40,035 nt of DNA from a virus. The stretch lies in IMG/VR virus record IMGVR_UViG_3300006947_002595, positions 1 to 40,035 of that record. One strand, written 5' to 3'. The translations under genes were made by a program, and so were the position numbers. Below the pieces are notes generated by a model. The model ran no database searches and was not told the origin of the DNA. It saw only the letters and a program-made list of their open reading frames with translations. Shown here piece by piece: positions 18,387 to 36,093 of the stretch; position 1 is the stretch's first letter, and each line of letters begins with the position of its first letter.

Positions 18387-19517
18387 ATGTTAGAAAATAT
18401 TGTAAAACTTGATACTCTGTTTAAAAGAGATACAAAAAGTAAAGTTCGCATGTGGGAAGTTGAATATGGACAAGGTCCTAGGCTACTTGCAGGAACACGT
18501 ACTATCAGTGGTTTAGTTGATGGTGCCAAAGTTACAAGCGAATGGAATATGAGTGCTCCCAAGAACGTTGGTAGAGCAAACGAAACAACCGCATTAAGCC
18601 AAGCACAAGCCGAAGCCCAATCTTTATGGGATAAACGTATTGAGAAAGAGTACTTTACAAATGTTGACAGCATTGACTCTTATGAACAATTTAAGCCAAT
18701 GCTTGCACATGATTATACAAAGCGTCCACAAGACAAAGGTTGGAGTCAGCCTAAGTTAGATGGTATTCGTTGTGTAGTTAATAGTAATGGAATGTGGACA
18801 CGTAGTGGTAAAGCTATTACAAGTTGCCCACACATTTGGGAATCTTTAAAAGGTTACATGGCAGAGCATCCAGGTCATATATTAGATGGTGAACTTTATA
18901 ACCATGAACTTAAAGCAGATTTTAATAAAATTATCTCACTTGTTCGTAAAACAAAAAGCACAGAAAAGGATATGGCTGAAGCTGAAACACTAGTGCAGTA
19001 TCATGTTTATGATATGTTTAATACAACAGCACCAGATATGAATTTTGTTAATCGTGTTAAGCAAGCATATTGGGCTAAAAACGATTATGTTCATATTGTA
19101 AAAACTGACTTTGCAAACAGCCAAGAAGAGCTTGATATATTGTACAGTGAATACACAGAGCAAGGTTACGAAGGCCAAATGGTACGTAACGACACAGCAT
19201 ATGAAAGCAAACGTAGTAAGAACTTACTGAAACGTAAAGAGTTCATTACTGAAGAATTCAAAGTTCTACAAGTACTTGAAGGCCAAGGAAATTGGAGCGG
19301 ATATGCTAAACGTTTTATACTTGAACTAGCAGACGGTAGACAGTTTGGTAGTGGAGTACGTGGACAGCAAGCACAGTTGGCAGAACTGTGGGCGGCTGGC
19401 AAAACAGCTAAAGGCATGCCCAATTGGGCCACTTGTAGATACTTTGAACTAACACCAGATGGAGTTCCACGTTTTCCAGTTATTGTGGACTACGGATACG
19501 GTGTACGTACTGATTAA
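18387..19517 (+). CDS. ATP-dependent DNA ligase
   Basis: A 376-residue ligase. After an N-terminal 90-residue module (VRMWEVEYGQGPRLLAGTR onward, resembling a WGR-type nucleic-acid binding domain) the nucleotidyltransferase core begins. Motif I is QPKLDGIR with the adenylated lysine at K123, motif III is HILDGELYNH, motif IV EGQMVR, and motif V NLLKRKEF. An OB-like domain closes the protein (LADGRQFGSGVRG). All catalytic elements are intact, so it probably seals nicks during phage replication. It is a different lineage from the gp30-like gene at 33005, whose catalytic lysine is lost. It sits alone between a dyad promoter and a terminator. Confidence 0.95.
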   Translation: MLENIVKLDTLFKRDTKSKVRMWEVEYGQGPRLLAGTRTISGLVDGAKVTSEWNMSAPKNVGRANETTALSQAQAEAQSLWDKRIEKEYFTNVDSIDSYEQFKPMLAHDYTKRPQDKGWSQPKLDGIRCVVNSNGMWTRSGKAITSCPHIWESLKGYMAEHPGHILDGELYNHELKADFNKIISLVRKTKSTEKDMAEAETLVQYHVYDMFNTTAPDMNFVNRVKQAYWAKNDYVHIVKTDFANSQEELDILYSEYTEQGYEGQMVRNDTAYESKRSKNLLKRKEFITEEFKVLQVLEGQGNWSGYAKRFILELADGRQFGSGVRGQQAQLAELWAAGKTAKGMPNWATCRYFELTPDGVPRFPVIVDYGYGVRTD

Positions 19518-22009: not shown

Positions 22010-22597
22010 ATGATAATACCAACAGTAATTGAATCAACAGGACGCGGCGAACGTGCATACGATATTTACAGTCGTTTGCTTAAAGATCGAATTGTAATGC
22101 TTAATGGCGAAGTTAACGACCATACTGCAAATTTAGTAGTTGCACAGATGTTATTTTTAGAATCACAAAATAGTAGTGAAGATATTAATTTCTATATTAA
22201 TAGCCCAGGTGGTGCAGTTACAGCAGGCCTAGGAATTTACGATACTATGCAGTTTATTAAATCTCCAGTAAGTACAATTGTTATGGGCCAAGCATGTAGC
22301 ATGGGTTCGTTCCTTGCTAACGCAGGCGAGCCAGGTAAGCGTTTAGTATTACCTAACAGTCGTACAATGATTCATCAGCCAAGCGGTGGTGCAGGTGGAC
22401 AAGCAACTGATATGCAGATTCAAGTAAATGAGATTATTAAGATAAAAGAAAGTCTTACACGCATTTATGAGAAGCATAATAGTAAGGGCAAAACATACGA
22501 AGTACTTGCAGAAGCTATGGAGCGTGATAACTTTATGTCCGCACAAGAAGCTGTAGACTTTGGTTTGGCCGATAAAGTTATAGAACGTAAAGTTTAA
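22010..22597 (+). CDS. clpP: ClpP protease subunit
   Basis: A 195-residue serine protease subunit with S97 (GQACSMGS) and H122 ([11 protein letters not shown]) at the E. coli positions and the catalytic Asp in MERDNF (D173). The oligomerisation block [16 protein letters not shown] and the N-terminal axial-loop region are present, and there is no long propeptide. ClpP forms a tetradecameric chamber that degrades proteins fed by ClpX or ClpA. ClpP-like proteases occur in phages as prohead proteases, but here a real ClpX with an IGF loop and ClpS are encoded nearby, which points to regulated proteolysis. No head genes are adjacent. A small kinase-like gene follows. Confidence 0.96.
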
Positions 22598-22610: not shown

Positions 22611-23303
22611 ATGAAGATACACGACATACTAGAATCAGAACAAATAGACGAAGGTCCAAACGACCCACATATATTCAAGGCAGTATTCCTAGCCGGCGGA
22701 CCCGGCAGTGGAAAGAGCTTTGTTGCAAACGATATGTTGGGAGGTTCGGGACTAAAGACTATTAATAGCGATATGGTCTATGAATACATGGCTCAAAAGA
22801 AACAATTGGATTTAAGAGATCCTGAGCAAGTAGCTAGTCCAGATGGTCAAGAGATACGAAACCATTCAAAAACGTTAGCTGATCGAAGAAAGAACATCTA
22901 TCTAGACGGCCGCCTTGGAATTATTATAGACGGAACAGGAAAAGATGTGCAAAAGGTTGCAGACAGTATTAAGGTAATGAAAGACCTAGGATACGAGTCT
23001 ATGATGATATTTGTTAATACAAGTCTAGAAATAGCACAGGAGCGTAACGACAAAAGGCAACGTAGATTGCCAACAGAGCTCGTTGCGAATATGTGGAGTA
23101 CTGTACAAAATAATATAATGAAATTTCAACAATTATTTGGTGCGAGTGATTTCCATGTTGTTGACAACAGTGGAGGATTAGAAGATCCGTCAAGAAAAGA
23201 GAATTTTGGAAAAGTTTATAAAGAAATCCAAAAGTTTCTTAACAGACCACCAGCGTCAAGGATAGCGAAACAATGGTTAACTGACGTTAGAAGTAAACCA
23301 TAG
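22611..23303 (+). CDS. P-loop kinase-like protein (zeta-toxin / polynucleotide-kinase type)
   Basis: A 230-residue P-loop NTPase with Walker A GGPGSGKS near residues 30-37, a following INSD block (Asp acceptor or metal site), the RLGIIIDGTGKD strand and a basic lid region QERNDKRQRRLP. This order is typical of zeta-toxin and AAA_33-type kinases that phosphorylate small molecules or nucleic acid ends. The substrate is unknown. The N-terminal 20 residues (IHDILESEQIDEG) are an extension often seen in marine phage proteins. A late-promoter-like GATAAATA lies only five bases before the ATG. Confidence 0.8.
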   Translation: MKIHDILESEQIDEGPNDPHIFKAVFLAGGPGSGKSFVANDMLGGSGLKTINSDMVYEYMAQKKQLDLRDPEQVASPDGQEIRNHSKTLADRRKNIYLDGRLGIIIDGTGKDVQKVADSIKVMKDLGYESMMIFVNTSLEIAQERNDKRQRRLPTELVANMWSTVQNNIMKFQQLFGASDFHVVDNSGGLEDPSRKENFGKVYKEIQKFLNRPPASRIAKQWLTDVRSKP

Positions 23304-23380: not shown

Positions 23381-23734
23381 ATGTATACTTACAGTGCGAA
23401 ATTAATAAGAGTAATTAACGGTGACACATTGGACCTAGATATTGACTTAGGTTTCGATCTGTCTACAAAGCAACGATTAAAACTCCATGGTGTAAATGCA
23501 CCCGATTCTAGATCAATGGATATCGATATCAAACAAAAAGGTATTGATGCTAAACAAAGACTAATTGATCTATTGACTAAAGAGTTTAAAGTAACGACTA
23601 TCCTCAATAAGCGAGGAAAGTATGGAAGGATCTTAGGATTCATTTACGTAATTGATTCTAAGGGTAATGAAGTTAACGTAGGTGAAGTATTGGTCGAAGA
23701 AGGCCATGCGATACACTACAACACAGGAAAATAG
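23381..23734 (+). CDS. SNase-like nuclease, cytoplasmic
   Basis: A 117-residue protein of the thermonuclease fold without a signal peptide: KLIRVINGDTLDLDIDLGF, RLKLHGVNAPDSRS and KYGRILGFIYV. The catalytic Glu that follows the DxP motif in staphylococcal nuclease (DTPE) is Asp here (NAPDS), and the preceding Asp is Asn, so catalysis may be altered. It is probably intracellular, unlike the exported SNase at 8582. It ends one base before the membrane protein gene. Confidence 0.82.
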   Translation: MYTYSAKLIRVINGDTLDLDIDLGFDLSTKQRLKLHGVNAPDSRSMDIDIKQKGIDAKQRLIDLLTKEFKVTTILNKRGKYGRILGFIYVIDSKGNEVNVGEVLVEEGHAIHYNTGK

Positions 23735-23735
23735 T

Positions 23736-25421
23736 ATGAGGTATTTTGGTTATTGGACAATTTTAGTTGCACTATCAATAAGTGCTGTGGCGGCCTACTA
23801 TAGCATAGTTGGTCTTGTGGCTATCTTTGCCAGTGCCATTATACCGATTATTATTATGGGTACCGTATTAGAAATCGGTAAGTTAACCTCAGCAGTGTGG
23901 TTACACTTGCATTGGCGAGAAGCTCCCATGCTTATTAAGACGTATCTCACTGTAGCCGTGCTTATGCTAATGCTTATTACAAGCATGGGTATATTTGGCT
24001 TTTTATCTAAAGCACACATAGAACAAACTAGCCGGGCTACTGAGAACGTTGCTCAAATAGAACGCATTGAAGAAAGTATCGTAAGACAAAAGTTTATTAT
24101 TACTAAAGCAGATACTAGCATAGACAAACTTGAAAATACAGACAACAATAAAGACGAAGGTATTCAAGCAAAAATCAATGTAGAACAAGAAAGAATTAAT
24201 TCGGCATACGCAGGTGTGCAACCATCAATTGATGAACAGAATGCAATTATTACAGATCAAAAAAATAGCTTAGAAAAACAAACAGCACCGTTTACTAGAC
24301 AGTTAGAAGAGATTGATAATCAACTAGCGTCAATAGAAACGTATATTGCTAATGAAGATATTAAAAAATTACAAGGACTAATAGGCGCATCACAGGATGG
24401 ACGCTATGGAACTAAAACTGCTCAAGCAGTGAATGAATATAGAGCTGAAAAAGAAAAGAACAGACGCATGGTTTTATATCAGCTAAATAATATTAGAAGC
24501 CAGGAAGATACAGTTACTAAGGAAGCTAGAATAGAGATTAAAAGACTTAGAGCCTTTGCAGAACAACAAATTGCAGACTCTAACGCATTAATAACTAGAC
24601 TTAGAGCAAACTTGGGACAAGGACAGTTAGTAGATAGTACAGACCAGATTAATGCACAACGTACTATTATTACTACAGCAGAAGATGTCCTAGATACGTT
24701 ATACACCGAGAAGTTTACATTAGAGGGCGATAGCAGATTATTAGAAGCAGAAGTAGGCCCTGTAAAGTATATTGCTGAATTAATATGGGGTGCAGATCCT
24801 ACTCGAAACATGTTGGACGATGCTGTTCGATTTGTTATATTAATGTTAGTACTAGTATTTGACCCACTAGCAATTGTGCTTGTAATATCAGGCATAACAC
24901 TAGTAGAAAGGTTTCCACGTAAGAAGAAACCAAAGGTAATATATGAAGAAAAAGAACCAATTTCTGAAAACATTGAAACAGACGATAGCGTCGAAGAAAA
25001 TGTTGAAGTCATTGAAGAAACAAACGAAGATCAATCCAGTGTTAGCGTTCAAGATGAGATACTTGAAGAAGACGTAATACACACGGACGGCGAAGGCAAA
25101 GAGTACACAGTCGATGCACTTACAGGCAAGCGCCAATATCTTTTAGATGAATCACAGTATAGTTTAAACGACACAGCAAGATCAACTTTAAAAAAGGAAA
25201 AAAAAGAACTGGTAAATAAAATAGTAGCAGAGATGCGAAGCACAGGCAGTTGGCCCGGAGCAGGTTACTTATCAGATGATGGCGTAATCAAGAAAAGAAT
25301 AGAAGATATATTTGCAGATGACGCATCGTTAGAGTTGAAAGAGTTAATGGCTAAGGCAGACTCAGCAGTGTTAAATGAAGTATACAAAGAAATCATAAAA
25401 GATACCAGAGATGAAAATTGA
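23736..25421 (+). CDS. Coiled-coil membrane protein with peptidoglycan-binding-like motif
   Basis: A 561-residue protein. Three to four hydrophobic segments in residues 5-90 (ILVALSISAVAAYYSIVGLV, IIPIIIMGTVL, TVAVLMLMLITSMGIFGFL) are followed by a long coiled coil (about 95-350) and another membrane segment near 366-390 (ILMLVLVFDPLAIVLVISG). Inside the coil, residues about 208-235 read KKLQGLIGASQDGRYGTKT..., which resembles the PG_binding_1 motif of cell-wall proteins. The C-terminal 170 residues are acidic and cytoplasmic. T4-like marine phages carry related proteins of unknown role. The start is the ATG at 23736, just after the nuclease stop, because the ATG at 23682 lies inside that gene. 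Confidence 0.78.
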   Translation: MRYFGYWTILVALSISAVAAYYSIVGLVAIFASAIIPIIIMGTVLEIGKLTSAVWLHLHWREAPMLIKTYLTVAVLMLMLITSMGIFGFLSKAHIEQTSRATENVAQIERIEESIVRQKFIITKADTSIDKLENTDNNKDEGIQAKINVEQERINSAYAGVQPSIDEQNAIITDQKNSLEKQTAPFTRQLEEIDNQLASIETYIANEDIKKLQGLIGASQDGRYGTKTAQAVNEYRAEKEKNRRMVLYQLNNIRSQEDTVTKEARIEIKRLRAFAEQQIADSNALITRLRANLGQGQLVDSTDQINAQRTIITTAEDVLDTLYTEKFTLEGDSRLLEAEVGPVKYIAELIWGADPTRNMLDDAVRFVILMLVLVFDPLAIVLVISGITLVERFPRKKKPKVIYEEKEPISENIETDDSVEENVEVIEETNEDQSSVSVQDEILEEDVIHTDGEGKEYTVDALTGKRQYLLDESQYSLNDTARSTLKKEKKELVNKIVAEMRSTGSWPGAGYLSDDGVIKKRIEDIFADDASLELKELMAKADSAVLNEVYKEIIKDTRDEN

Positions 25422-25860
25422 TAACGATAGTTACACAGTAACACCCCCAGATTTAATGATGACGGAACATGGGATTGGAATTCTAATCTCCTCAACTAAT
25501 CACGAACTAGTAGATGACATTAAAGCAGTATTTGAACAATACATTGCTACAAGTGTTGTGTTTATGGTTCAAAATAATAAAACAAATGGAGGAACATTAC
25601 CTTGGATGTGGAATGTTTCTAAAACATGTGACTTCATGATAATTGATGTTGACACGTGTGCATGGGAAGATATTATGGCAGCACTTTTGAAATCAAAAGA
25701 AGAACCAAATACCGTCCTATTTTATAGTGATAAGTACAAGAGAAGGGAGACAGTTAAATTGATTAATGCAACAGGAACAAACTTAGTGGTTAGGTCAATA
25801 AAAGATATAACAGCCTATATCCAAGTACAAATGAGCACAGAGTATCTAAATGAAATCTAG
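25411..25860 (+). CDS. Hypothetical protein, 149 aa
   Basis: A compact alpha/beta protein (GIGILISSTNHELVDDIKAVFEQYI, CDFMIIDVDTCAWEDIMAALL, TVLFYSDKYKRRETVKLINAT) with a response-regulator-like or Rossmann-type alternation of strands and helices, but without clear catalytic residues. It overlaps the genes on both sides by 11 bases, so it is translationally coupled to the membrane protein and to clpX. Unknown function; a role as a ClpX adaptor is possible only by position. Confidence 0.72.
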   Translation: MKIDNDSYTVTPPDLMMTEHGIGILISSTNHELVDDIKAVFEQYIATSVVFMVQNNKTNGGTLPWMWNVSKTCDFMIIDVDTCAWEDIMAALLKSKEEPNTVLFYSDKYKRRETVKLINATGTNLVVRSIKDITAYIQVQMSTEYLNEI

Positions 25861-27076
25861 TTCTTCGTTAGTTCAGTGCAATTTTTGTAGTAAAGATACA
25901 ACACAGGTAAAGAAGCTACTAGCAGGTGAAAACCATACGCATATATGTAGTGATTGTGTTGAGCTTTGTTATGGCATAATCAAGAACGAAACTGTTAAGA
26001 TAGAAAACGCTATTCAAAAGAAAACTAAAAACGTTATACCCACTCCCAAAGGAATACACAAGCACTTAGACAAGTATGTTATTAGCCAATCACATGCTAA
26101 GAAAACATTAAGTGTTGCAATGTATAATCATTATAAAAGAATTAGTAGTAAAACAAAATCAAGGTTACAAAAAAGCAACGTGCTTATTGCAGGTCCTACT
26201 GGAACTGGCAAAACATTAATGGCACAAACACTAGCTAGGTTTTTAGATGTTCCATTTGTAATTACAGATGCTACAGTTATCACAGAAAGCGGATATGCAG
26301 GTGATGACGCAGAAGTATTAATACATAAATTATTTGCCGCAGCAGATTACGATATTGACAGATGCCAACGTGGTATTATATATGTAGATGAAATTGATAA
26401 GAAAGCCAAGCGAAATGACTATGTTAGCTTGAGTAGAGACGTTTCTGGAGAAGGAGTCCAACAGAGCCTTTTAAAGCTCATGGAAGGTACTATAGTAGCG
26501 GTTCCGAACAAACCGACACATAACCCGGAGAAGGTCGAAATCGACACCACTAACATACTATTTGTAGTAGGTGGAGCCTTCGTTGGCCTACAAGATGTTG
26601 TGCTTGAACGACTCGGTAAAGCAAAGATAGGTTTTAACGACTCTAACGATGCCGCAATTAAAGACTGGCAAAGGCACTTACAAACACGTGACTTAGTAAA
26701 ATATGGATTAATACCTGAGTTTATAGGTAGACTTCCTAGTGTTAATGTGTTAAACTTATTAAGTAAGCAAGATTTAGTAGAAATATTGACAGAACCAACA
26801 GATAGTATTATTGATCAAATAAAAGATTTATTTTTACTTGACAAAATACAAATAGAGTTTACAATAAGTGCATTAGAAGAAGTTGCAACTGTTGCTATAA
26901 ACGAAGAAATGGGTGCTAGAGGTTTACGTAAGATTTTAGACGAAGCACTTTTAGACATCCAATATGAGTTACCTGAGATGTATGAACAAGGAGTTAGAAA
27001 AATTATTATTAACGAAAATGTAATACGCAATACCGGAAAACCCATAATTATTAAAGGCACAAACACAGTTGAATAA
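25850..27076 (+). CDS. clpX: ClpX ATPase / unfoldase subunit
   Basis: A 408-residue AAA+ protein aligning with ClpX from end to end. Zinc-binding C10, C13, C33 and C36; Walker A GPTGTGKT (115-122); Walker B IIYVDE (176-181); pore-2 block SRDVSGEGVQQ; ClpP-docking tripeptide IGF (260-262) in its loop; sensor II GARGLRK. Two substrate-contact loops differ from E. coli: pore-1 GYVG is GYAG (148-151), and the RKH loop, which reads the ssrA tag C-terminus, is KPTH (221-224). ClpX unfolds tagged proteins and feeds them to ClpP, whose gene lies 3.3 kb upstream. It overlaps infC by eight bases. Confidence 0.97.
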   Translation: MKSSSSLVQCNFCSKDTTQVKKLLAGENHTHICSDCVELCYGIIKNETVKIENAIQKKTKNVIPTPKGIHKHLDKYVISQSHAKKTLSVAMYNHYKRISSKTKSRLQKSNVLIAGPTGTGKTLMAQTLARFLDVPFVITDATVITESGYAGDDAEVLIHKLFAAADYDIDRCQRGIIYVDEIDKKAKRNDYVSLSRDVSGEGVQQSLLKLMEGTIVAVPNKPTHNPEKVEIDTTNILFVVGGAFVGLQDVVLERLGKAKIGFNDSNDAAIKDWQRHLQTRDLVKYGLIPEFIGRLPSVNVLNLLSKQDLVEILTEPTDSIIDQIKDLFLLDKIQIEFTISALEEVATVAINEEMGARGLRKILDEALLDIQYELPEMYEQGVRKIIINENVIRNTGKPIIIKGTNTVE

Positions 27077-27590
27077 AAGCAATTTTAAAAAGAGAGACAT
27101 CGGTCCTAAAGTAGTAGCAAATAACAGGATTAGGTGCAAGACAGTAAGAGTTTCCTTTCCAGATGGTGATAGTCAAATACTATCGATTGAGGACGCACAG
27201 AGGAGTGCATTAGAACTAGACTTAGATTTAGTGTTGATCACTGAAACAGCAGATCCACCAGTTTGTAAAATAACTGATCTAGCTAAGTTTATATACGCCT
27301 CTAAGCAAAAAGACAAGTTGGCTAAACGAAAGCAACGTGAAAGCGTTGTTGAGACAAAGGAAATACGTTTGGGAATTAACATCGATATAGGTGACATAAC
27401 TACCAAGGCTAAGCAAGCACGTAAATTCTTAGACAAAAACAACAAAGTTACGGTTACCATTATTCTTAAAGGTAGAGAGCGGGGGAAAAGCGATAGAGCT
27501 AAAGAACTGCTAAATACATTTGCTGACACTCTAGGTGTTGAATATGAAAATATAAGCATTCAGAATAATAGAGTGACTGGAAAGATATAA
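27069..27590 (+). CDS. infC: Translation initiation factor IF-3
   Basis: A 173-residue IF-3 with both domains: the N-domain (NNRIRCKTVRVSFPDGDSQILSIEDAQRSA, then DPPVCKITDLAKFIY), a Lys-rich linker (QKDKLAKRKQRES), and the C-domain beginning TKEIRLGINIDIGD with KARKFL-type and VTVTIILKGRERG blocks. It lacks the last few residues seen in many host IF-3s. IF-3 keeps ribosomal subunits apart and rejects wrong starts. No ATG is available near the start: translation most likely begins at the TTG inside the clpX stop region. Host infC genes also use poor start codons for self-control. The bS21 gene follows after six bases. Confidence 0.95.
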   Translation: MNKSNFKKRDIGPKVVANNRIRCKTVRVSFPDGDSQILSIEDAQRSALELDLDLVLITETADPPVCKITDLAKFIYASKQKDKLAKRKQRESVVETKEIRLGINIDIGDITTKAKQARKFLDKNNKVTVTIILKGRERGKSDRAKELLNTFADTLGVEYENISIQNNRVTGKI

Positions 27591-27596
27591 CAAAAT

Positions 27597-27833
27597 ATGT
27601 CAAAAAATAATCATAAAGATCAACGAGGCGGCGGTGGCCTAACAGTTGAAGTTAGAAACAATAATGTAGAACAAGCACTACGTAAGCTAAAGAAAATGAT
27701 AGCCAAAGACGGTATCATGCAAACAATACGTGACCGTAGTCATTTTGTAAGTAATACTGAGAAACGATTAAAAGCAAATGCCGCGGCAGCTGCCAGACAT
27801 CGTAGACGTATTAAGGAAAACAAGTACGAATAA
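27597..27833 (+). CDS. rpsU: Ribosomal protein bS21
   Basis: A 78-residue basic protein with the bS21 signature VEVRNNNVEQALRKLKKM, the RDRSHFVSNTEKRLK middle part and an Arg/Ala-rich end (AAAARHRRRIKEN). bS21 sits on the small subunit near the mRNA exit and affects initiation and Shine-Dalgarno recognition. Marine phages, including pelagiphages, are known to carry it. With the adjacent infC it makes a two-gene initiation module that could bias host ribosomes towards phage mRNAs. The N-terminal 14 residues (MSKNNHKDQRGGGG) are an unusual glycine-rich extension. Confidence 0.95.
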   Translation: MSKNNHKDQRGGGGLTVEVRNNNVEQALRKLKKMIAKDGIMQTIRDRSHFVSNTEKRLKANAAAAARHRRRIKENKYE

Positions 27834-27948: not shown

Positions 27949-28374
27949 ATGACAAGACTTACAACACTAAACCTACCAGACTTCTATAAAGCCACTATTG
28001 GTTTTGATAGAATGTTCGATGAGATGCAAAATGCATTTAATCCAACAACTACAGGCGGGTATCCACCCTACAATATCGTTAAAGTAAACGAAACAAGCTA
28101 TGCAATTAGTTTAGCAGTAGCTGGTTTTAATAAGAACGATATTAGCGTGGAGCAAGACGGTAACATGCTTACTATCAAAGCTGAAGATACTTCAGAAGAA
28201 GATGTTAAGGAATATCTACACAAGGGTATTGCAACTAGAAACTTTACAAGAGAATTTAGTTTAGCAGATTATGTAGATGTAACTGGAGCGAAACAAAATG
28301 ACGGAATTTTAGAAGTCACTTTGCAACAAAACATTCCAGATAACAAGAAACCACGTAATATTAAAATTGGATAA
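27949..28374 (+). CDS. Small heat-shock protein, Hsp20 family (IbpA-like)
   Basis: A 141-residue chaperone. After an N-terminal arm (DFYKATIGFDRMFDEMQNAF, similar to the IbpA start) comes the alpha-crystallin domain (PPYNIVKVNETSYAISLAVAGF, DISVEQDGNMLTIKAED, IATRNFTREFSLADYVDVTGAKQNDGILEVTL) and a short tail. The usual I-x-I tail motif appears as NIKIG. Hsp20 proteins hold unfolded proteins for refolding or degradation. T4-like cyanophages also encode Hsp20. In this window it lies between bS21 and ClpS, within the protein quality-control group. Confidence 0.95.
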   Translation: MTRLTTLNLPDFYKATIGFDRMFDEMQNAFNPTTTGGYPPYNIVKVNETSYAISLAVAGFNKNDISVEQDGNMLTIKAEDTSEEDVKEYLHKGIATRNFTREFSLADYVDVTGAKQNDGILEVTLQQNIPDNKKPRNIKIG

Positions 28375-28385
28375 CAGGTAAAACA

Positions 28386-28688
28386 ATGGCTCAAGCATCA
28401 CACGAAGACATAGCAGAAATGACAAGGTTAAAATCACCACCTAAATTTAACGTGATTCTAATGAATGATGAAGCTACGCCTCAAGAGTTCGTAGTTAATG
28501 TTTTAAGATCAATTTTTAATAGAACATCAGACGAAGCAGAGGCAGTGATGCTTGAAGTCCATAACAAGGGCAGAGGCATAGCTGGTACATACAGTTACGA
28601 AGTTGCTGAACAAAAATGCGTTGAAACGATTACTGACGCAAGGCGTAATAGCTACCCACTAGACGTCACATTAGAAAAAACAGAATAA
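28386..28688 (+). CDS. clpS: ClpS, N-end rule adaptor
   Basis: A 100-residue adaptor with all ClpS blocks: KFNVILMNDEATPQEFVVNVL, IFNRTSDEAEAVMLEVHNKGRGIAG and TYSYEVAEQKCVETI. The residues that line the N-degron pocket (ND in MNDE, M and H in VMLEVH) are present. ClpS normally delivers proteins with destabilising N-terminal residues to ClpA for ClpP. No ClpA gene is visible, so it would act with host ClpA or with the phage enzyme in a new way. It starts 11 bases after hsp20. Confidence 0.95.
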   Translation: MAQASHEDIAEMTRLKSPPKFNVILMNDEATPQEFVVNVLRSIFNRTSDEAEAVMLEVHNKGRGIAGTYSYEVAEQKCVETITDARRNSYPLDVTLEKTE

Positions 28689-30011: not shown

Positions 30012-30798
30012 ATTTATAGCCGCAATGGACCACAGTGGTGGAAGCACAGGCGGAGTACTAGAACGTTACGAACAAGATTATACAGAAGATAATAAAATGG
30101 ACCTTGTACATCAAATGCGTATGCGTATGGTTAATAGTCCAGACTTTAACAGTAATAATATTTGGGCCTCAATACTTTATAAAGATTCAGTTGAACGAGG
30201 TTTATCTATGATCCTACGTGCAAAAGGCATTGAACCATATCTTAAAATTGATAGTGGGTGTGAAGAAGATGGAACACTCAAACACTTTGATTTAGAAGAG
30301 ATGTGTAAGTATGCACTTGAAATGCAATGTAGTGGTACTAAGATGCGTAGCATTATTAAAAGCGAAGAGATGATTGATGCAGTACTTAAACAACAATTTG
30401 GTATGGCTGCATATATTAGTAACAAAGGCCTTATGCCAATTGTAGAACCAGAAATTCCAATTGATCATCCAATGAAGCGTTCGTTAGAGATTATGCTTTT
30501 TGAACAGTTAAACAATCATCTACAAACATTAGATGGTAAGTGTATTCTAAAACTTACACTACCTGATATTAAAGAACTCTATAAACCATTGACAGCACAT
30601 GAAAGTTGTAGTAGTATTGTAGCATTAAGTGGTGGATACACTACAGAAGAAGCATGCAAAAGACTAGCAAATAATCCTTCAATGGGTGCTAGCTTTAGTA
30701 GAGCATTAAGCGAGGGATTGTTCTATGGACAGACTGAGCCGGTATTTGACACACGAATAAGTGCAAATATTGATAACATTAAAAGGAGTTGTGAATGA
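30004..30798 (+). CDS. Class I fructose-bisphosphate aldolase
   Basis: A 264-residue protein matching bacterial class I FBP aldolases of the staphylococcal type: [17 protein letters not shown] at the start, [17 protein letters not shown], the Schiff-base lysine region [24 protein letters not shown] and [11 protein letters not shown]. It cleaves or forms fructose-1,6-bisphosphate by a Schiff base without metal. Aldolase in a phage could divert carbon to triose phosphates or feed the neighbouring nucleotidyltransferase pathway (inference). The ATG at 30004 is chosen because the conserved sequence begins there; an ATG at 29950 lies within the HAD gene. It overlaps guaC by ATGA. Confidence 0.93.
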
Positions 30799-31943
30799 GA
30801 ATCGAAACAGAACACAAGCTAGATTATAGCGATGTATTAATTAGACCAAAGCGTAGTACGTTAGGGTCGAGAAAAGACGTTGATTTACAACGTGGATTTA
30901 CATTTAGAAACTATTTGGGAGCAAGGCCTTTAAATGAACCAGAAGACTACAGCGGTATTCCTATTATGGCTTCTAACATGGATGGAGTTGGTACATTTGA
31001 AATGGCAGACACACTTGCTAAACAAAGTATCTTCACTTGCTTAGTTAAAACATACAGCGTAGAAGAACTTGTTGAATTCTTCAATACGGATAATGAGTCT
31101 CGCACAGATAATGTTGCTATTAGTATTGGCATCATGGAAAAGGATCAACAGAAATTTAGTGACGTATATGAACAAGTTGGTGCCCGTATCAAGTATGTTT
31201 GTATTGATGTAGCAAATGGATATAGTGAACGATTTAGTAACTTTGTTAGAAAGTTTAGAAAACAATATCCATACGTAGTAATTATTGCTGGTAATGTAGT
31301 AACAGGCGAAATGACAGAGGAGTTAATTCTTAATGGAGCAGACATTGTTAAAGTTGGAATCGGACCAGGTTCCGTGTGTACAACAAGAATCCAAACAGGT
31401 GTCGGATACCCACAGCTATCTGCAGTTATTGAATGTGCAGATGCGGCACATGGACTTGGTGGACATATTATCGCTGATGGGGGTTGCAATTGTCCTGGTG
31501 ACGTGGCTAAGGCATTCGCTGGCGGTGCAGATTTTGTAATGCTTGGCGGAATGCTAGCAGGACATGATGAAGGCGGTGGAAAAACTATTCTTAAACATTA
31601 TGAGACAAATGAACTTGTATATGAAATAGGTAGTCACTTGGATAAGCATACAAAGAAAATTGAAACAAAAGAGTTTGTAGCATTCTACGGAATGAGTTCA
31701 AATGCGGCAAACACAAAGCACTTTGGAGGATTGAAAGATTATAGATCAAGCGAAGGACGTGAAGTACTTGTTCCTTATCGTGGAACAGTAGAAAATACTA
31801 TACAAAATATATTAGGCGGAATACGTAGTACATGCACATACGCAGGTGCAAACCGTCTTAAATACCTAAATAAATGCACTACATTTATTATGGCTAACAA
31901 ACAGTACAACGCAGTATATGAAGCGACTACAACGAAGATTTAG
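30795..31943 (+). CDS. guaC: GMP reductase
   Basis: A 382-residue member of the IMPDH/GMPR family. The start [19 protein letters not shown] is GuaC-like, and the catalytic loop [20 protein letters not shown] contains the active-site Cys. [35 protein letters not shown] forms the phosphate-binding part. No CBS domain pair is present, which supports GMP reductase over IMP dehydrogenase. It deaminates GMP to IMP with NADPH, letting guanine from degraded host RNA flow to adenine nucleotides, useful for an AT-rich phage genome. It closes the metabolic operon. Confidence 0.93.
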
Positions 31944-32962: not shown

Positions 32963-33014
32963 CCTTGCTCAGATAACACTAGTTTTAATCGGCTAAATAG
33001 TTGTATGAGCAAGG
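32963..33014 (+). repeat. Inverted repeat spanning the start codon of the ligase-like gene
   Basis: CCTTGCTCA (32963-32971) is the exact complement of TGAGCAAGG (33006-33014), which overlaps the ATG at 33005. The loop is 34 bases. If transcribed from upstream, the pairing would hide the start codon. A GCTAAATA late-like box lies in the loop, so late transcripts from it would lack the left arm. Confidence 0.4.
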
Positions 33015-33976
33015 TACATCTTTTATCACAAATAATAGCTAATTTACAGCTACCTACAACTCAAGACGAGAAGATTGAGTTACTAACCACCTATAATAAA
33101 GAAATCATACTGAAACGCATTATAAGTATTGCGTATAATCCATGGATTGATCTTGGTATGACTAAGTTTAAGCCTAGACATACTGGTAAACAGTTTGGAA
33201 TGGGTATAGCTAGATTCTTACATATTCTAGATGATATTATAGATGAAAAATATTCACATAAAGAAAAAGAGTTTTCATGCAATATGGCACTTATGCATAT
33301 TGAACAAAATGATGCTAAACTCTTTACTAGCTTAATTACACAGTCATTAGATCTATGCTTAGATATTGAATCAATCAATACAGTTTGGCCTGGATTAATA
33401 ATGAACTATCCAATAAGCACTCCAGTTACTACAGACTATAAAGAATTTAAATTGTTTCCAGCATCAGTACAACCACTTAGCAGAGGCTTACGAGTCAATG
33501 TAATGGTTTACAATGATGTTGTATTCTATAAAGACAAGCTAGGTAATAATATACTAGGTTGGGAAATATATGACAAACAATTTATTAACCTAGCACAAGG
33601 TAACAATACAGTATTTGATGGGCATGCAGTAGTTGCAGAAGGCGTTAACGTTGTTGAAGTTGCAAACGATAAGGTACTAGAAGCAGAAGCAGAGAACATT
33701 AGATTCATGTTATGGGACGTTATACGTTATGATGGGTTTGTTAAAGGTGAAGACACACGCATGGGTTATAACTGGCGTTACAACGGTATTGAACATATGC
33801 AAATATTAGCCATAGACAAGAATCCTGCTCCTTGTTATGATTTAGTTCGTGCTGAATTAGTAGGTAGTCAAGAGCAATTAGCACTTACTGTGTCTAAATT
33901 CAGTGGATGTGTTATTAAGAGCTTAGATGGTATCTGGAAACACGGTCCAGATGAAACACAAGTTATTTGCGTCTAA
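33005..33976 (+). CDS. Degenerate T4 gp30-like DNA ligase, catalytic lysine lost (pseudo-enzyme)
   Basis: A 323-residue protein collinear with the first two-thirds of T4 DNA ligase: ILKRIISIAYNP near the start, HTGKQFGMG, SINTVWPGLI, then the motif I region FPASVQPLSRGLR. In T4 this reads LKADGAR with adenylated K159; here the Lys is Leu (L158) and the Asp is Arg (R160). Motif III DGE is DGH (205-207), the motif IIIa strand RFMLWDV is kept, motif IV EG is SG, and the protein stops at SLDGIWKHG, before motif V and the OB domain. It cannot be a normal ligase. The frame is intact, so a structural or DNA-binding role is likely. It overlaps the lipase gene tail to tail. Confidence 0.85.
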   Translation: MSKVHLLSQIIANLQLPTTQDEKIELLTTYNKEIILKRIISIAYNPWIDLGMTKFKPRHTGKQFGMGIARFLHILDDIIDEKYSHKEKEFSCNMALMHIEQNDAKLFTSLITQSLDLCLDIESINTVWPGLIMNYPISTPVTTDYKEFKLFPASVQPLSRGLRVNVMVYNDVVFYKDKLGNNILGWEIYDKQFINLAQGNNTVFDGHAVVAEGVNVVEVANDKVLEAEAENIRFMLWDVIRYDGFVKGEDTRMGYNWRYNGIEHMQILAIDKNPAPCYDLVRAELVGSQEQLALTVSKFSGCVIKSLDGIWKHGPDETQVICV

Positions 33977-35132: not shown

Positions 35133-35465
35133 TTGTAACGTTGAAACTTAATTGAACGCTAAACTGGACCTGGGGGCAGTACCCAGCAGCTCCACCATAA
35201 ACACACCGCCGTGTGGACCGAAAGACGGATTCTATAGGCGTTTCGGCATATGTCGCAGTAGAATATTACGGTGTGTTTTTGATGGGGCTGATATAGGATC
35301 GACAGGTAGACTAGATAAGTGGAGTTATCCCGATGTAAGCTGGGTTAACGCGAACAAACTTTATAATTGCAAACGCAAATTATGAGCCAGAAATGGCAAT
35401 AGCAGCCTAAATTAGGTATGTAGGGGTTTTGGTAACTTGGACCTGGCAACAGAATCAAGTTGCAA
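35133..35465 (+). ncRNA. ssrA: tmRNA, circularly permuted two-piece type
   Basis: The acceptor piece comes first: T-arm CTGGG-GGCAGTA-CCCAG (35170-35186), then CAGCTCC and encoded ACCA (35187-35197). An intervening hairpin (AAACACACCG/CGGTGTGTTT) leads to the second piece, which starts GGGGCTG (35284-35290) and pairs all seven bases with CAGCTCC, then GATATAGGATCGACAGG as in other tmRNAs. The resume frame GCA...TAA (35370-35411) encodes ANANYEPEMAIAA. The 3' end is not exact; the AACTTG/CAAGTT hairpin ends near 35461. Permuted ssrA genes are typical of alphaproteobacteria. It rescues stalled ribosomes and tags products for ClpXP; clpX and clpP are also in this window. Confidence 0.93.
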
Positions 35466-35508
35466 ACTTCATGGACATAAGTTCATGATTATCTTAAACA
35501 GGAATAAT

Positions 35509-36093
35509 ATGAAAAATTTAATGATGACTGCGGCCGCAATAGCCGTAATTTCTACAGCCGCATTGGCTGAGGATTATGACAATACATCTATTACTATGGC
35601 AGCTGAAGGTGCTACAGTAGGAGTTGAGTTGTCAACAAATGATACAACTAGATCACTGGGCGTATACACAACTAACACTGCACTCGATTATGGTGTGCAA
35701 ATGATTGATAATGGCACTAAGCGTGACTATAATCTTTCAGTTGGTAATACAGTTGAAATGCCTGTTGGATTTGCCGGAACGGCATATGTTAAAGGCGAAG
35801 CTGAGTATAATTGGGGTGACTCATATACTAAAGCAGAAATGCACATTACACCAGCAGTTGGCTTTAAAACAAAGTTAGCTCAAATTGCTCCATTCGTTGA
35901 AGCTGGTTATAGATTGAAATCAATCGAAGGTGATTATACTAATGTAAACCGTGATGCTCCTTATGCAAAACTTGGTACTTCGTATCAGTTAACGCTTAAC
36001 ACAGCATTGAACTTAGACGTAACACAGTCTATGGATAAAAAGTGGAAATCAACAGACCGTGAACTTGGTGCAAAATTAACATTTAAATTCTAA
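35509..36093 (+). CDS. Outer-membrane beta-barrel protein with signal peptide
   Basis: A 194-residue protein. Residues 1-20 (MKNLMMTAAAIAVISTAALA) form a Sec signal peptide with an ALA cleavage site. The mature part is alternating beta strands (TVGVELSTNDTTRSLGVYTTN, MHITPAVGFKTKLAQIAPFVEAGYRL) and ends in Phe (KLTFKF), the BAM recognition signal. The size fits an eight-stranded barrel. An outer-membrane protein made by a phage could block receptors or alter surface properties (inference). The start at 35509 with AGGA is preferred to an upstream frame that would read into the tmRNA. A strong terminator follows. Confidence 0.85.
   Translation: MKNLMMTAAAIAVISTAALAEDYDNTSITMAAEGATVGVELSTNDTTRSLGVYTTNTALDYGVQMIDNGTKRDYNLSVGNTVEMPVGFAGTAYVKGEAEYNWGDSYTKAEMHITPAVGFKTKLAQIAPFVEAGYRLKSIEGDYTNVNRDAPYAKLGTSYQLTLNTALNLDVTQSMDKKWKSTDRELGAKLTFKF

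Follow-up and report, generated by a model that had tools for sequence, protein, structure and literature searches.

Which proteins would a ClpX choose if its motor and its ClpP-docking loop were left as they are in bacteria, while the loops that read degradation tags were exchanged? This question is raised by a clpX gene in IMGVR_UViG_3300006947_002595, a 40 kb IMG/VR virus record without host contigs, which was analysed over its full length of 40,035 nucleotides (the window). Relatives found among viral contigs have single records of 184-222 kb, so the window represents only part of a large phage genome. Its tmRNA, permuted and of the alphaproteobacterial type, suggests an alphaproteobacterium as the host.

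The surroundings of clpX consist of genes for proteostasis and translation (Table 1). A ClpS match is present in 22 of 22 phage records, that is, in all records searched. Among the remaining genes of the window, the one immediately 3' of clpP possibly encodes a polynucleotide or zeta-type kinase. The start call of the Phage_OMP beta-barrel ORF, a TTG within the 3' end of the tmRNA gene, may be wrong.

Table 1. Features of the window; positions are counted from its first nucleotide.
Feature	Position	Strand	Basis and occurrence
Two ORFs, phage ATP-dependent DNA ligase	18387-19517; 33005-33976		each matches phrog_114
Phage clpP, 195 aa, full triad, Lys at the E. coli Arg192 position	22010-22597	+	PF00574, 264 bits; 58% identity to E. 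coli ClpP
AAA_33/Zeta-toxin-like kinase gene	22611-23303		in 33/61 related loci
Membrane protein, 579 aa, 5' of clpX	23682-25421
Receiver (REC/CheY-like) protein, 149 aa, candidate ClpX adaptor	25411-25860	+	shares 11 nt with the 5' end of clpX; AF2
Phage clpX, 408 aa (zinc-binding domain, AAA+ large and small domains)	25850-27076	+	Pfam; AF2 model, pLDDT 83
Pore-1 loop GYAG, residues 148-151 (E. coli GYVG; Val154 to Ala)	26291-26302	+	Ala 35/35 lineage, Val 80/80 cellular
Ser195 codon, equivalent of E. coli pore-2 Thr199, ssrA carboxylate contact	26432-26434	+	Ser 35/35 lineage, Thr 79/80 cellular; role from PMC7652416
RKH-loop region VPNKPTHNPEKVE, residues 218-230, without RKH, 3 residues shorter	26501-26539	+	alignment; AF2
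IGF loop, residues 260-262, ClpP docking	26627-26635	+	IGF in 35/35 lineage ClpX
Translation initiation factor IF3	27069-27590	+	Pfam IF3_N, IF3_C; in 55/61 loci
Ribosomal protein S21	27597-27833	+	Pfam Ribosomal_S21
Hsp20 small heat-shock protein	27949-28374	+	PF00011, E 2.9e-19
ClpS adaptor	28386-28688	+	PF02617, E 1.2e-27
IMP dehydrogenase/GMP reductase-like	30795-31943		PF00478, E 1.5e-68; in 47/61 loci
Permuted alphaproteobacterial-type tmRNA, tag ANYEPEMAIAA	35105-35501	+	ARAGORN; RF01849 98.7 bits, RF04321 105.9 bits
Phage_OMP beta-barrel ORF	35437-36093

The phage ClpX, 48% identical to that of E. coli, matches the Pfam families zf-C4_ClpX (E 9.9e-14), AAA_2 and ClpB_D2-small. The zinc-binding cysteines are kept in all 34 lineage proteins that have this region. 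Walker A (GPTGTGKT), VDEID, GLIPEFIGR and GARGL are unaltered, and the catalytic columns are kept across all lineage loci except for one truncated row. Measured against a canonical ssrA-reading ClpX, the protein lacks Val154 of GYVG as well as Arg228 and His230 of RKH. The RKH motif is replaced by KPTH (residues 221-224), and the AlphaFold model of the monomer predicts at its position a plain, short hairpin of two beta strands (215-219 and 228-232). GYAG, KPTH, IGF and the unbroken catalytic motifs had been listed in an earlier note on this DNA, and all are confirmed by the translation and the Pfam matches. Absent from that note were the shortening of the RKH loop, Ser195 at the Thr199 position, and the ClpP, ClpS and Hsp20 of the phage.

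In E. coli, the ssrA tag is read by six side chains, Tyr153, Val154, Thr199, Val202, Arg228 and His230, as established by cryo-EM and mutants (PMC7652416); the statement of the earlier note that both loops read ssrA in this species agrees with that work. The exchanges Y153A, V154F and R228A raise KM at least 50-fold, T199A and H230A raise it strongly, and T199S raises it about 4-fold. R228A, while lowering specificity for ssrA, increases it for an N-degron substrate (PMC7652416). A published measurement for V154A was not found in a literature search. The phage ClpX is altered at four of the six ssrA-reading positions, with Ser199 retaining the hydroxyl. Weak direct reading of ssrA can thus be predicted by reasoning from these residues. 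Because T199S keeps the hydroxyl and raises KM only about 4-fold in E. coli, some ssrA reading may remain.

The exchanged loops might simply have come with a clpX gene acquired from the host, and the earlier note had named GYAG and KPTH in the ClpX of the likely alphaproteobacterial host as the observation that would mark them as inherited. Cellular ClpX was sampled with scan patterns seeded outside the loops (n=80, about a quarter alphaproteobacterial). GYVG is present in 80 of these 80 proteins and RKH in 79, so the pore loops of bacterial ClpX are nearly invariant in this sample. A DNA-level search for TExGYAG(D/E)D found GYAG in none of 385 alphaproteobacterial genomes, 357 of which contain the GYVG version. 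Inheritance from the host is rejected on these counts, and the refutation proposed in the earlier note fails.

How widely the changes are spread was followed in viral contigs, where one scan yielded 61 loci and a second 80 further, overlapping ones; one pattern of the second scan admitted only Ala or Val at position 154, so that rarer residues there may be under-sampled. The other lineage proteins share 50-80% identity with the window ClpX. Ala154, Ser199 and IGF occur in each of the 35 distinct lineage proteins, and RKH in none. A three-residue deletion shortens the RKH loop in 25 of 26 representatives; the exception, L049, also lacks RKH but has no deletion. Ala154 is encoded by GCA, GCT, GCG and GCC across the 26 representatives, and its retention over all four codons indicates a residue held by selection. 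Conservation reaches 0.93-0.94 in the pore-1 and pore-2 windows, compared with 0.73 for the whole ClpX and 0.64 for the RKH tip.

Phages outside the lineage present another picture. L053-L060 have the same clpX-IF3-S21 gene order, yet they retain GYVG and RKH. Of 65 other distinct phage ClpX proteins, 63 carry Val154, 56 Arg228 and 52 His230. RKH is also lost in L093, L094, L095, L239, L242 and L254 (among them SCTP-2 with GYMG, LR756504 with GYTG and PA5oct with GYVG); loss of the RKH loop is thus recurrent among phages.

Counted by E. coli position, 134 alignment columns reach a conservation of 90% or more in cellular as well as in lineage ClpX. Twenty-two columns are fixed differently in the two sets, and 13 of them fall within the three loops that read degrons (odds ratio 10, p 9e-6, the columns not being strictly independent). 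The conserved columns of the IGF window are identical in cells and lineage. In a ClpX tree computed without the loop columns, the lineage forms a single clade with an SH-aLRT support of 100; this clade has a long stem and lies outside cellular ClpX. On this tree GYAG requires one change, and the RKH state requires eight over the whole tree. Since every lineage ClpX carries the loop changes, which are not derived from the host and cluster in the degron loops, a retuned substrate specificity of the phage ClpX is well supported by sequence comparison.

The partner of this unfoldase has to be considered next. The phage encodes a ClpP of its own, and a strong ClpP match was obtained in all 21 lineage records searched. 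Its gene starts with AGGAG followed by an ATG placed right at the mature N-terminus, without a propeptide. The equivalents of Ser97, His122 and Asp171 are present in 53 of 53 lineage ClpP sequences. At the position of Arg192 these sequences have Lys (48/53) or Ile/Leu (5/53), whereas 60 of 73 cellular ClpP sequences carry Arg there; this column lies at the variable C-terminus and its alignment is less sure. The lineage thus lacks an Arg192-type docking residue, which is conserved, though not required for being ClpP. In E. coli, ClpP R192K loses ClpX binding (PMC7112951). With IGF retained by the phage ClpX, the simplest reading of the sequences is a co-evolved pair of phage ClpX and phage ClpP. 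The tacit assumption of the earlier note that IGF serves the ClpP of the host is weakened by the phage's own ClpP with its altered docking residue, and mixing of either phage protein with host partners may still occur. Three long lineage records (G010, G012 and G015) each contain a second, weaker ClpP-like match of 105-113 bits, probably a head maturation protease and not a true ClpP.

The tmRNA accompanies ClpX in most lineage records (13 of the 21 searched) and, where present, lies about 8 kb downstream of clpX. The tags of the lineage include ANDNYSPEMALAA, ANDNYQPEMALAA, ANNNYAPEMALAA, ANNNYEPEMAMAA, AEDNFAIAA (L376) and that of the window, and each of them ends in hydrophobic-Ala-Ala, as do the sampled alphaproteobacterial tags. 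A C-terminal Ala-Ala is read by canonical ClpX. A tag of the host type is, for example, ANDNYAPVAVAA. The motif PEMA(L/I/M)AA occurs in phage tags and is absent from the sampled alphaproteobacterial ones. In G011, no tmRNA was found from clpX to beyond the syntenic tRNA-Arg(tct)/tRNA-Leu(taa) pair, and in G015 none within 33 kb downstream of clpX; the ClpX loops of both are the same as in the window. They are also the same in L376, whose tag is quite unlike that of the window. The ClpX loops do not change with the presence or sequence of a tag. SmpB was not found in 20 records, and the phage tmRNA would therefore need host SmpB. The adaptor SspB was not found in 23 phage records.

A candidate for substrate delivery is encoded directly upstream of clpX. 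The 149-aa gene is located immediately 5' of clpX in all lineage loci with upstream sequence, and a separate scan for this gene placed it beside a GYAG clpX in 50 of 50 loci (49 automatically, one by eye). Its product has no solid match in Pfam, PHROGs, PDB sequences or the phage collection, and Response_reg matches weakly in 6 of 31 family members. The AF2 model (pLDDT 79, pTM 0.74) consists of a (beta/alpha)5 fold following a disordered, strongly conserved N-terminal tail, DNSSYTVTxPDL. The top Foldseek and VIA matches of this predicted model are mostly receiver domains of response regulators, with Z up to 10.6 and a Z of 9.4 for RssB (8twd). Asp79 at the end of beta-3 is invariant in the lineage and varies in a second phage group, and the acidic pair after beta-1 is absent; control by phosphorylation is doubtful for these reasons. 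In Caulobacter, the single-domain receiver CpdR primes ClpXP via the ClpX N-terminus (PMC8973945). From fold and linkage, we infer that the 149-aa protein is a candidate adaptor of the phage ClpX.

The gene is not exclusive to the GYAG lineage, as homologues adjoin clpX on its 5' side in eight loci of the second phage group, where ClpX has canonical RKH and GYVG. The link with clpX is accordingly older than the loop change or independent of it, and the receiver-fold gene alone leaves the loop changes unexplained. In the canonical-RKH phages L053-L060, it is the membrane protein gene that adjoins clpX; in the window, the 149-aa gene is an extra one between both. A 143-aa ORF 5' of clpX in Phosso looks similar by eye and was rejected as a homologue, since hhalign found no significant similarity (probability 0.3%, E 0.18).

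Several explanations of the altered entrance can be weighed on these data. The earlier note had linked the retuned specificity to the phage's own tag. The loop evidence strengthens the retuning itself, while the link to the tag is weakened by the identical loops of G011, G015 and L376. That the loops were retuned to favour the tag of the phage tmRNA at the expense of tags and substrates of the host is quite unlikely: the joint occurrence of tmRNA and ClpX and the PEMA(L/I/M)AA motif would fit, yet the loops do not follow the tag, every tag keeps the canonical end, and so variable an RKH tip does not look like a new site for specific tag binding. The same variable tip, together with the repeated disruption of RKH in phage ClpX, could reflect drift in a protein that was freed from host substrates and lost specificity residues no longer needed. 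Such drift is unlikely, with GYAG and Ser199 invariant in 35 distinct proteins and Ala154 kept over four codons.

Other explanations place the function of the phage ClpX outside substrate choice. For Atu_ph07 and other jumbo phages, a mainly non-proteolytic role as a remodeller in replication or virion assembly has been suggested (PMC6102473, PMC7824862), and clpX does lie near topoisomerase genes in other phages. For the present lineage this role seems rather unlikely, because IGF is conserved without exception, clpX is always accompanied by a complete clpP gene in its vicinity, and the neighbours in the window are proteostasis and translation genes. Interference, in which phage ClpX subunits or ClpP would compete with or poison host ClpXP, draws on the canonical IGF, which makes docking to host ClpP possible. 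It is highly improbable given a phage ClpP with an altered docking residue and the retention of all catalytic residues in both proteins, none of which a poison would need.

On balance, we consider it more likely than not that the lineage possesses a self-contained phage ClpXP, the entrance of which was rebuilt a single time when the lineage arose and has been conserved since, with substrates being delivered in another way. The ClpX keeps its motor and docking loop and would work with the phage's own ClpP. The single remodelling comprised Val154 to Ala, Thr199 to Ser and the loss and shortening of the RKH loop. Its likely effect would be a weak direct reading of canonical ssrA and of other ClpX degrons, and a shift towards substrates that reach the enzyme through N-terminal degrons or with the help of a dedicated adaptor. 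For the latter, the best candidate would be the receiver-fold protein whose gene overlaps the clpX start, and which may act like CpdR. Gene content, the loop changes, their single origin and conservation, the linkage and the predicted fold come from computation, whereas altered specificity, pairing of phage ClpX with phage ClpP and adaptor function are inferred.

The lineage phages probably degrade a set of proteins different from that of the host. A more tentative extension, possible at best, is an orthogonal ClpXP that combines the remodelled unfoldase, a peptidase with a matching docking surface and a receiver-fold priming adaptor, and that would carry out phage-specific degradation largely insulated from host ClpXP. 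With all three degron-reading loops changed and the motor kept, the lineage constitutes a natural experiment on substrate choice by an AAA+ protease. Should the receiver-fold partner prove to be a true adaptor, phages would have a counterpart of CpdR and RssB, which could also serve as a tool for orthogonal targeted degradation. The ClpX and ClpP of jumbo phages, so far seen only as possible aids to assembly or replication, would gain a testable role.

ClpX and ClpP have been noted before in jumbo phages, with suggested roles in virion assembly or replication control (PMC7824862, PMC6102473, PMC11242549). Al-Shayeb et al. described IF3, S21 and tmRNA in huge phages (PMC7162821), and "Clp" is absent from the text of that article. 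In the open-access literature searched, we found neither the loop changes nor the receiver-fold partner described.

Compared with bacterial ClpX (E. coli, Caulobacter), the phage protein has the same domain architecture, Walker motifs, sensor arginine, zinc-binding cysteines and IGF; it differs in having GYAG for GYVG, Ser for Thr199, a loop without RKH that is three residues shorter, and a deep separate branch. The Rak2-like phages Atu_ph07, Phosso and AP-J-162 share the order of clpX followed by IF3 and also encode their own ClpP (64-66% identity to that of the window), with S21 or ClpS elsewhere in the genome. Atu_ph07 and Phosso, in contrast, retain GYVG and a full-length loop with RKN, and they fall outside the lineage clade. 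Human mitochondrial ClpX is likewise altered by nature at the Thr199 and His230 positions, with Leu at both, whereas the phage has Ser199, a short loop and GYAG. The human enzyme does not degrade ssrA substrates and regains this ability with the pore-2 and RKH loops of E. coli (PMC7652416).

With CpdR and RssB, the 149-aa protein has in common the receiver fold, which in the phage protein is a predicted one. It differs from them in the missing acidic pair, in the missing beta-3 Asp outside the lineage, in the additional conserved N-terminal tail and in having no significant family match. In phage SPO1, an adaptor-like protein is reported to modulate host ClpCP (PMC6873191). There, a host protease is the target; here, the phage itself encodes the unfoldase, the protease and the candidate adaptor.
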